Source: Sulfurovum sp. TSL6 (lineage in GTDB: Bacteria; Campylobacterota; Campylobacteria; Campylobacterales; Sulfurovaceae). Taken from it: a DNA stretch of 64,000 nt. The DNA is taken from positions 496,001 to 560,000 of the forward strand of contig NZ_BPFJ01000001.1 in the NCBI RefSeq assembly GCF_019972115.1. The letters run 5' to 3'. A program made the position numbers and the translations under genes. Shown one piece after another: positions 24,150 to 27,530 of this stretch; the first letter of the stretch is position 1; each line of letters begins with the position of its first letter. The notes below the pieces were generated by a model, which was not told where the DNA came from, did not search any database, and was given only the letters and a program-made list of their open reading frames with translations.

Positions 24150-24575
24150 CGGAAACCTTGTGGTGGATTAACTACTATAAGTATAACAGAAACAATTCGA
24201 ATGGAGTAGGGAAGGATGAAAAATACTTTTCTCTTTCATTCTTTTTCCGACACTTGAAAATGAAAACTTCAATAAATAGTAAGCAGCTGTGACTACAAAA
24301 AAATAACATACAATCGATATGATACACAGAGTGAATATTTATTAATATAAAATAAATTTAATTTGTAGTAACTTTACTAATATTCTTGAATATTTATAAA
24401 TATTAAATATGATATATCTCCCGTATATAGGGGAATATATAAGAGTTATACAAAAGTTACTACAAATGCTTGACATATGTAGTAACTTTTGTGTACAATA
24501 GATGTATAAGGTTTAGATATTCCAGTTTGGAAAACGCTCTAAGAAGAAAAAGTTTGATGGAGATCGGAGGAAAAG
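24150..24575. promoter_or_regulatory. 426-bp intergenic region with three-copy GTAGTAAC operator array
   Basis: No gene seen. ATTTGTAGTAACTTT (24361-24375) is perfectly inverted at 24453-24467. The latter copy is also inverted, as a perfect 15-bp pair, against 24478-24492 (24450-24464 with 24478-24492). The three copies share the core GTAGTAACTTT. The last two flank and enter the promoter of the downstream EAL gene. A separate palindrome AATATTC-TT-GAATATT lies between copies one and two. Confidence 0.8.
24470..24499 (+). promoter_or_regulatory. Strong promoter embedded in the GTAGTAAC repeats
   Basis: TTGACA (24470-24475), an 18-bp spacer and TACAAT (24494-24499). One repeat copy ends three to six bp upstream of the -35 element and another fills the spacer. 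A protein bound there would block RNA polymerase, so repression, possibly autorepression, is the natural reading. Confidence 0.7.
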
Positions 24576-26135
24576 ATGCCAATCAGAACTATCACTGACA
24601 AGCACTATAAAGGTGTCAGTGAACTCTATCGTAAATCCGATGGTCAGGTTACAGGTTACTACGTGACCTATAGAGATACTGATGGCAAACCGATCAAGAA
24701 AAGAGTAGAGGCTCAGACCAGAGATGAAGCTTTACAGAAACTGATGGAAATTAAACATCAAGTGGACTTAGACAAAAAAGGAAAGAATATGGGTGCAACT
24801 CTTCCTCAACCAGAACATAAAATATTGGCCAATGAAAATAATAAAAAGCCATTGTCTCTTAAATCATCAAGAAAAACAATGCAGGATCACCAAAAAATGA
24901 TCTCTACCTACAATGATGTGGCTATCGTTTCACTGATAGACATCGTTGCATTCGATGATATTAATATCCTCTACGGCTATGAAACAGGTACACGGATTGT
25001 CACTGAAATGCAAACGATGCTAGAAGATACGCTGCAAGAGATGGACACTCAAGGTGTATTTAGAAAACACGGTGTTGAAGTATTTTCTTATGAAATGTAT
25101 CATGTCTATGCAGATAAACTCTGTTTATTCATAAAACATGACTTGAATCATCGTCTGCTTGAATTTGTTGTAAAAGCGTTATCACAACGCATTGCAAATC
25201 ATAAGTTCTTTATGGCTGATGACAGCCATATTCATTTGAATGCGACGTTTGGTGCCACCAAAGCAGATAGTTCTGTGAGTTTACTCTATGCGGAAAAAGC
25301 ATTGCAGGAAGCAAAAAAATCACGCAAGAACTATGTTTTTTATGACACGTATTCGATCAATAAGAATGAACATATCGTCAATAAAGTCTATGAGACATTG
25401 CTTAATAATATTAAACAAGAGACCGTCACCCCATACTTTCAGGGGATCTTTGATGCGGATAATGATACCCTGCCAAACAAGTTTGAAAGCCTCATGAGAC
25501 TGATGGACAGTGAAGGGCATGTATTATCCCCAGCGGCATTTATGGAAAAATCAAAAGAGTACCGTTTATATACACAGTTGATGTCTCAAATGATAGAAAA
25601 AGTGTTTGATGTTATGGATAAACACGATGTTGCTATAACCTTGAACCTTTCGTATCTGGATATCAATAACGCTGAACTTTGTCATACTTTGATGCGTCAA
25701 ATTAAACAAAGGAAGATTGGGAATCGTTTAACGGTTGAGATCGTGGAGAGTGAGCAGATAGAAGATATTGAACAGGTCAATGAATTTATATTTTCACTTA
25801 AAAAACAAGGGGTACTGATCGCGATAGATGATTTTGGCAGCGGATTTTCCAATTTTGACAATATCGTCAATCTTGATATCGACTATGTCAAACTTGATGG
25901 TTCGCTGGTCTCGAAAATAGATGATGAAAAATACAGGATCATCCTGGAGAATATGGTGAAGATATGCCATGACCTTGGGATCCAAACCATTGCTGAATAT
26001 ATCAGTGATGAGAGAATTATGAGTCTGGCAAAAAGTATCGGTGTAGACTATCTTCAAGGGTATCATTTGCATAAGCCGGAGCATTGGGACCGTGTTAGCG
26101 CAACATTTGGCCCGAAAGGGGGCAACATTGTATAA
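24576..26135 (+). CDS. EAL protein with integrase arm-like N-terminus and degenerate GGDEF
   Basis: Protein of 519 aa. Residues about 10-70 (GVSELYRKSDG, YYVTYRDTDGKPIKKRVEA, then a DEALQKLMEIK helix) resemble the arm-type DNA-binding domain at the N-terminus of tyrosine recombinases; no recombinase domain follows. Residues about 110-275 are a GGDEF-like fold with YADKLCLF in place of the GGDEF signature, so cyclase activity is unlikely. Residues about 285-510 are an EAL domain with FESLMRL, NLSYLDI, VEIVES, IDDFGSGFS, VKLDGS, AEYI and LQGYHLHKP, so phosphodiesterase activity is plausible. Start has GGAGG. It could be a c-di-GMP-dependent DNA-binding protein (inference). Confidence 0.8.
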   Translation: MPIRTITDKHYKGVSELYRKSDGQVTGYYVTYRDTDGKPIKKRVEAQTRDEALQKLMEIKHQVDLDKKGKNMGATLPQPEHKILANENNKKPLSLKSSRKTMQDHQKMISTYNDVAIVSLIDIVAFDDINILYGYETGTRIVTEMQTMLEDTLQEMDTQGVFRKHGVEVFSYEMYHVYADKLCLFIKHDLNHRLLEFVVKALSQRIANHKFFMADDSHIHLNATFGATKADSSVSLLYAEKALQEAKKSRKNYVFYDTYSINKNEHIVNKVYETLLNNIKQETVTPYFQGIFDADNDTLPNKFESLMRLMDSEGHVLSPAAFMEKSKEYRLYTQLMSQMIEKVFDVMDKHDVAITLNLSYLDINNAELCHTLMRQIKQRKIGNRLTVEIVESEQIEDIEQVNEFIFSLKKQGVLIAIDDFGSGFSNFDNIVNLDIDYVKLDGSLVSKIDDEKYRIILENMVKICHDLGIQTIAEYISDERIMSLAKSIGVDYLQGYHLHKPEHWDRVSATFGPKGGNIV

Positions 26136-26880
26136 CAATAACGATAAACTGGTACAGATCACCGAAAAAACAAAGCGTAGGGCGTTAAAGCATGAGATCA
26201 TCCTACCTTCTACGTATCTTGAGATATTTATGGAAGAGATGAAAAAAATAGATGATCAAGAGCAAGAAAAAAGTATTCACAATGTTGCAGCAGATGAGGA
26301 TGAGATCATAAACACTATGAAGTCGCTGAAACAAATGGAGCAACATTGGTTTGATTCAGGTAGAGACTATGTGACTGAGCTGAAAGTTCTGCGGTCTGCT
26401 ATGGACACTCTGCGTACACAACTCTTTTCAGATGATATTTCGAAGAGTAAAAACCGATTATGGATCTTTAAAGATAAGCTCAATAATAATGAAACATTTA
26501 ATGATCGCGGATTTTTGATCAGTATCAAGATAATCGATTATGACAGGATCAATAGTGAGTATGATACGAATATAGGGAATAGACTCTTAAAACAGGTTAG
26601 TGACTATATGATCGGTTATTTGGACCAGAAGCATTGCCATTATGAGATCGTGCGTTATTCGGATGATAACTTTCTGATTTTTTTGCATGAGTTGAATGAG
26701 AAGGAAGTAGAAGAATATCTACACAATATGCAAAATGAGATGTCAAATTATAGCTTCAAACACCGTAATAGGGTATTTAACCTGACATTTAACGCTGCGC
26801 TTATGCACTATATAGAAAATGAATCCTTTGCATCAGTACTGGGTCAGTTAGACGACAAACTTTTTGAAAATAGGTTGTAA
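26128..26880 (+). CDS. Degenerate GGDEF-domain partner protein
   Basis: Protein of 250 aa. The N-terminal half is rich in charged residues and probably helical (residues about 35-110); the C-terminal half is GGDEF-like (FLISIKIIDYDRINSEYDTNIGNRLL) with RYSDDNFLIF replacing GGDEF, so it is likely non-catalytic. I chose TTG at 26128, which overlaps the upstream stop and has AAAGGGGG five nt before it; a GTG at 26092 is the alternative. The overlap implies coupled translation with the arm-EAL protein, and the two probably form a complex. Confidence 0.72.
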   Translation: MYNNNDKLVQITEKTKRRALKHEIILPSTYLEIFMEEMKKIDDQEQEKSIHNVAADEDEIINTMKSLKQMEQHWFDSGRDYVTELKVLRSAMDTLRTQLFSDDISKSKNRLWIFKDKLNNNETFNDRGFLISIKIIDYDRINSEYDTNIGNRLLKQVSDYMIGYLDQKHCHYEIVRYSDDNFLIFLHELNEKEVEEYLHNMQNEMSNYSFKHRNRVFNLTFNAALMHYIENESFASVLGQLDDKLFENRL

Positions 26881-27101: not shown

Positions 27102-27530
27102 ATGGTACTCTCAGAAAAAACAGTTGAGATATGTAAAAAAACAGCACCGTTACTAGTAGAATATGGGGAAGCTATTACTACGAGAATGTATGAGATCTTG
27201 TTTATGAATTATCCTGAGACAAGAGCTCTTTTCCCTGAAGCACTTGAAGCGCAGTACAAAAAACTTGCAGGGGCTATCGTTGCATACGCAGCCAATATCG
27301 ATAAGCTTCATGTGTTAAGTCATACGGTAGATGACATTGCAAAAAGGCATGTAACTACAAATGTGAAGCCAGAACACTATCCCATGGTGGGTGCTTCTTT
27401 ACTACAAGCCATTAAAGATGTGCTGGGTGATGTAGCAAGTAAAGATGTCATTGATGCCTGGAAAGAGGCGTATTTCTTCTTGGGAGATATACTCATAGGA
27501 AGAGAAAAAGAGCTCTATGCTGCTAGATAG
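27102..27530 (+). CDS. Single-domain haemoglobin (Cgb/Vgb-like)
   Basis: Globin of 142 aa. LSEKTVEICKKTAPLLVEYGEAITTRMYEILF (helix A/B, positions about 3-34) and AKRHVTTNVKPEHYPMVG (proximal His in the F helix, followed by the KPEHY signature) mark a flavohaemoglobin-like single-domain globin. No reductase domain is present. In Campylobacter this type (Cgb) detoxifies nitric oxide, which fits a nitrate-using organism. Start has AAGGA. Confidence 0.92.
   Translation: MVLSEKTVEICKKTAPLLVEYGEAITTRMYEILFMNYPETRALFPEALEAQYKKLAGAIVAYAANIDKLHVLSHTVDDIAKRHVTTNVKPEHYPMVGASLLQAIKDVLGDVASKDVIDAWKEAYFFLGDILIGREKELYAAR

Follow-up and report, generated by a model that had tools for sequence, protein, structure and literature searches.

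PdeL (YahA), a trigger phosphodiesterase of E. coli, combines a DNA-binding domain at the N-terminus with an EAL domain at the C-terminus and regulates its own promoter, where the target is an imperfect palindrome; c-di-GMP turnover and transcription are coupled in one chain (PMC5052742, PMC12564702). The protein activates its own expression and this autoactivation is inhibited by c-di-GMP (PMC5052742). In eukaryotes, recombinase DNA-binding domains are known to have been reused as regulators, ALOG domains being an example (PMC3537659). The window analysed here, a stretch of 64,000 nucleotides from Sulfurovum sp. TSL6, contains a gene for an EAL protein that begins with a domain homologous to the N-termini of tyrosine integrases. 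The preliminary description of this DNA knew of no regulator with such a layout, and we likewise found no description of an EAL domain fused to an integrase arm in a full-text search of an open-access library; the sections consulted of a 2025 review of c-di-GMP effectors list none with a recombinase arm domain. We propose, with a probability of about 0.7, that a tyrosine-integrase arm domain has been reused here to give an EAL regulator its DNA-binding module, and that this regulator controls its own expression, probably by repression.

The described regulators that read c-di-GMP do so with HTH, receiver/ATPase, PilZ or CRP-type parts. PdeL is functionally the closest to the Sulfurovum protein, as it also has a DNA-binding N-terminus and an EAL C-terminus, the Sulfurovum side being predicted from the sequence. 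PdeL, for which no GGDEF domain is described, has a LuxR-type HTH, binds far upstream and activates, whereas the Sulfurovum protein has an integrase arm, a degenerate GGDEF domain in between and sites lying across the −35 element and the spacer, and its coupling to c-di-GMP is putative. No HTH family was matched at its N-terminus and the predicted domain consists mostly of strands; the protein lacks the LuxR-type HTH N-terminus and is no PdeL orthologue. The LapD-type c-di-GMP receptors have the same GGDEF-EAL order and gave the best PDB sequence matches of the EAL domain, among which PdeL and many enzymes were found too. LapD is a membrane receptor without catalytic residues, whereas the Sulfurovum protein keeps the catalytic residues and has a DNA-binding-type domain at the N-terminus in place of the membrane part.

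The EAL gene (24576–26135, + strand) encodes 519 aa and is preceded by a Shine-Dalgarno-like GGAGG (24566–24570, + strand), with the ATG 5 nt further on. The putative DNA-binding arm domain spans residues 1–70 (24576–24785) and is followed by a low-confidence linker (residues 69–99, pLDDT <50 in the predicted model), a GGDEF domain at about residues 107–256 (24894–25343) and an EAL domain at residues 274–501 (25395–26078). The degenerate GGDEF and the intact-looking EAL domain noticed earlier were both recovered, the former with a Pfam E value of 0.0016, which is below the cut-off, and with ADKLC in place of the GGDEF signature, and the latter with an E value of 1.6e-52. The second gene of the operon, also on the + strand (26128–26880 from a TTG start that overlaps the EAL stop, or from a GTG at 26092), encodes another degenerate GGDEF protein, which reads SDDNF; the GG(D/E)EF signature of active diguanylate cyclases is thus absent from both proteins. 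The related loci that we examined likewise have this second gene next to the EAL gene, and a GCS-like gene upstream is part of the synteny common to most long Sulfurovum loci. In one relative (L041:9824–10958) the second gene is present in two tandem copies 3′ of the EAL gene, and a single-domain globin resembling the globin part of flavohemoproteins follows the operon in the window (27102–27530) and in only some of the closest relatives. In Sulfurovum sp. AR (L037, EAL gene from 10001), the arm-EAL frame is interrupted by one in-frame TAG after 164 codons, so that the gene is either a pseudogene or contains a sequencing error; G076 has an almost identical copy that is intact.

The active-site residues of EAL phosphodiesterases, which we take from family knowledge to be the E of EAL, N, E, DD, K, E and Q, are retained, and the motifs (F/Y)ESL, N, E, DDFGSG, K, AE and Q are kept in all 15 full-length homologues. 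The conservation of these positions makes EAL phosphodiesterase activity plausible. It may also be that the protein binds its operators and uses the EAL domain simply as a structural or dimerisation part that senses no c-di-GMP, a reading that we consider doubtful. The operon's two GGDEF domains are degenerate, and FESL and AEY occupy the positions where EAL and AEG are usual, yet the metal- and substrate-binding residues of the family appear to be kept in 15/15 homologues.

The origin of the N-terminal domain was traced by searching 78 Sulfurovum genomes with residues 1–96. The search recovered 11 EAL-fused homologues in 10 genomes and, scoring below them, true tyrosine integrases that matched with their N-termini; one of these is encoded in the own genome (34% identity, E 5e-7) and another in genome G006 (48% identity, E 6e-8). 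The matched integrases have Phage_integrase catalytic domains C-terminal to the aligned part; family scans found no such domain in the EAL protein, which is therefore no integrase. The class-wide search added four EAL-fused homologues from another family and further integrases. When profiles were built separately from the EAL-fused and the integrase sequences, they aligned over 68 columns with 99.5% probability and an E value of 7.5e-23. Close homologues without the arm were absent from the genus; all those down to 64% identity are arm-fused and the next have at most 41%. The domain matched no family in Pfam, NCBIfam and PHROGs scans, and the Pfam arm families match neither this N-terminus nor those of the true integrases homologous to it. 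Only chance matches resulted when the domain or its profile was compared with PDB sequences, no confirmed member was found in viral contigs searched with the arm profile, and the plasmid search returned generic EAL proteins only.

The fold of the domain, as predicted by AlphaFold with a pLDDT of 86, consists of four strands followed by a helix; the elements compared with the three-stranded sheet and C-terminal helix of Tn916 Int are E14-18, E25-33, E39-44 and H49-73. Foldseek found no significant match in the PDB, and two entries of the Tn916 integrase N-domain appeared at E ~2. In a VIA-align comparison with 999 chains, the GCC-box domain of AtERF1 (1gcc) ranked third (Z 4.5, 52 residues, 3.1 Å) and the Tn916 integrase N-domain (1bb8) fourth (Z 3.5, 51 residues, 2.8 Å), both Z values being low. 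These structural neighbours, of which the AP2/ERF proteins are eukaryotic transcription factors, cover most of the model and show no match to the Sulfurovum domain at the sequence level. The predicted fold, which had been named beforehand as a test of the proposed arm-like N-terminus, thus aligns weakly to the AP2/Tn916-integrase arm fold. The assignment of residues 1–70 as the domain found in the arm position of integrases is nevertheless firm at the level of sequence, because the homology to integrase N-termini joins Z values that would be unconvincing alone.

The promoter of the operon carries three copies of one repeat. TTGACA (−35, 24470–24475) and TACAAT (−10, 24494–24499) on the + strand are separated by 18 nt and form the best promoter of the region, with 11 of 12 matching positions. 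Copy 1 of the putative half-site TGTAGTAACTTT is distal (24364–24375, + strand), copy 2 adjoins the −35 element upstream (24453–24464, − strand) and copy 3 lies in the −35/−10 spacer (24478–24489, + strand), so that copies 2 and 3 make an inverted pair around the −35 element with copy 1 about 90 bp upstream. The exact sequence GTAGTAACTTT occurs at 24365–24375 (+), 24453–24463 (−) and 24479–24489 (+), and the repeat can be written (T)GTAGTAACTTT. The preliminary description had placed three copies around and inside this promoter, which was found exactly; its repeat units of 15 nt were too long, the common core in relatives being TGTAGTAAY. As a counterpart to copy 1, the closest relatives retain a lone + site at −212 to −221. 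Reading copy 1 as a palindrome in itself (TAGTAA-CT-TTACTA) was rejected because relatives do not keep the palindrome. The genome scan proposed along with that description gave four exact copies of GTAGTAACTTT in the whole 2.25-Mb genome, three of them at this locus and the fourth within a respiratory-complex gene. No second inverted pair of the form GTTACTACA-N13-TGTAGTAAC was found in the own genome with 3 mismatches allowed, and a wider regulon sought there was not found, the site being present only at the EAL-gene promoter.

The operator-like sites are conserved together with the gene. We examined 16 homologous loci, down to 46% protein identity, and found 2–5 TGTAGTAAY sites within 300 bp upstream in every one, as against means of 0.00–0.04 in dinucleotide shuffles. 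Aligned on the −35 element, all 16 read RTTACTACA-N5/6-TTGACA-N-GTAGTAAY followed by a −10-like hexamer: copy 2 is present, TTGACA keeps its position between the half-sites and the core GTAGTAA of copy 3 is retained throughout. The expectation that the repeats persist at orthologous promoters was thereby borne out at each one examined. Inverted neighbouring sites are spaced 22–25 bp in 24 of 25 cases. The architecture is also kept by a 46%-identical homologue in a Campylobacteraceae MAG. In the 78 Sulfurovum genomes, TTACTACA-N0-30-TGTAGTAA was found in 10/10 carriers of the gene, always at this locus, and in 3/68 non-carriers (Fisher p 2e-10, a value that overstates independence because the sequences are related); a reversed-pattern control also gave chance matches in a handful of genomes. 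That the sites persist in homologues of as little as 46% identity and across families is a better argument than the p value.

The same core was found beside integrases that carry the homologous domain, an association that the preliminary description had not anticipated. An unbiased search for tandem repeats in the 700 bp upstream of 16 such integrases returned a TGTRGWAA-like tandem direct repeat in nine, and none in the other seven. The repeat unit is TTGTGGAAACTTTT(T), present twice upstream of the integrases L016 and L058 and similar in L018; GTAGTAACA, twice upstream of L015; TGTAGTAAAAA, twice upstream of L063, L067, L070 and L073; and TTGTGGTAAAAA, twice upstream of L066. Shuffled upstream sequences contained a TGTRGWAAM pair in 0 of 300 trials each. 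In the reverse direction, a scan of 397 genomes of the class, in only 19 of which arm genes were detected at E 1e-4, placed 10/14 exact TGTAGTAAAAAYTGTAGTAAA pairs no farther than 6 kb from an arm-integrase gene; of the remaining four, two lie near contig ends. The pair TGTRGWAAC-N-TGTRGWAAC occurs once in the 78 genomes of the genus, directly before an arm-bearing integrase. In L122 and L124, exact TGTAGTAAAAACTGTAGTAAA pairs had no arm-integrase gene in the surrounding 6 kb; they may mark the far ends of integrated elements or be what is left of them. The own-genome integrase (L018) is preceded by two tandem pairs of TGTGGAAA(A/C) that are about 134 bp apart (G000:C1:266586–266741) and resemble a two-part attachment region. 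Intact tRNA genes beside the integrases were seen near the gene in one locus only.

The repeats beside the integrases occupy the usual place of arm-type sites, and their role in recombination is putative. The shared core speaks strongly for a recognition of the site by the domain, which is predicted from these co-occurrences. The Campylobacterota tyrosine integrases, such as that of the own genome (L018, G000:C1:266 kb), share the homologous N-terminal 70 residues and the TGTRGWAAM core beside the gene. They have core-binding and catalytic domains and direct repeats 12–13 bp apart, whereas the EAL protein lacks a recombinase domain and its sites are inverted pairs 22–25 bp apart at promoters; the mode of binding must differ because of this difference in orientation and spacing.

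Inverted repeats for HTH regulators are common at bacterial promoters, and the repeats could be operators of an unrelated regulator encoded elsewhere, with another role for the arm domain. The strict co-occurrence of sites and gene across genomes, only at this locus, and the presence of the same core beside genes of integrases with the same domain make this very unlikely. It is still less probable, to the point of being barely credible, that an integrated element left the repeats and the arm domain behind as passive relics, the former as arms of an old att site and the latter as an accidentally fused integrase fragment. The domain and the core sequence are plainly of integrase origin, but homologues of 46–88% identity from several families retain the layout of the promoter together with 34 arm residues that are invariant, the orientation and spacing are unlike those of the integrase repeats, extra pairs occur at promoters of neighbouring genes, and the locus is syntenic with no integrase there in the neighbour comparison.

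For the autoregulating EAL protein we propose the following mechanism. The arm domain, joined to a degenerate GGDEF and an EAL module of the c-di-GMP phosphodiesterase type, would recognise TGTAGTAAY. EAL domains are known to form dimers, and two subunits held together through the EAL/GGDEF part may occupy the inverted half-sites, whose 22–25 bp correspond to about two helical turns. The inverted pair straddles the −35 element and fills the −35/−10 spacer, and because its occupancy should block RNA polymerase, the operon of the EAL gene and the second degenerate GGDEF gene is most likely autorepressed. If the EAL domain binds or hydrolyses c-di-GMP, the geometry of the dimer would change and with it the grip on DNA. 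We infer the binding, the dimer on the inverted pair, the repression and the c-di-GMP coupling, and we are least certain of the sign of regulation. The suggestion in the preliminary description that the protein may bind its own promoter in dependence on c-di-GMP is partly supported. The same protein-DNA pair might act as an autoactivator at low c-di-GMP with activating upstream sites, in the manner of PdeL, the closest functional analogue, which activates its own promoter and is inhibited by c-di-GMP (PMC5052742). Several loci have additional upstream sites or pairs, but the sole arrangement kept in all loci covers the −35/−10 spacer of a near-consensus promoter, where an activator should be unnecessary, and activation is the improbable sign of the two.

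If binding is confirmed, an integrase DNA-binding domain and its recognition site would have moved jointly from DNA integration to gene control, TGTRGWAAM would be the site to expect for a set of integrase arm domains that are so far uncharacterised, and the operon would represent a compact c-di-GMP feedback circuit in Campylobacterota. We lean slightly towards the wider reading that the arm domain and its recognition sequence make up a domesticated bacterial regulator family, which would read c-di-GMP through the EAL domain and govern its own operon as well as, in some species, surface lipoprotein genes next to it. Such a family would be a bacterial parallel to the AP2-type reuse, as transcription factors, of DNA-binding domains resembling those of recombinases.

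Candidate further targets were seen in relatives. In the MAG locus L040, a gene for a lipoprotein of 372 aa that contains a CarboxypepD_reg domain adjoins the EAL gene and has the same promoter, with TTGACA inside the inverted pair; L041 seems to have a decayed copy. Divergent genes for short lipoproteins resembling the 3D domain, an assignment below the Pfam cut-off, have a pair at about −100 from the ATG in L133 (L038) and L135 (L040), and the pair was absent upstream of seven homologues of these genes in non-carrier genomes. The two lipoprotein genes by the EAL gene in L040 (L040:1366–2484 and L040:517–996) both have an operator pair upstream, one of them containing TTGACA, and judging from these sites they are likely extra targets in that MAG.
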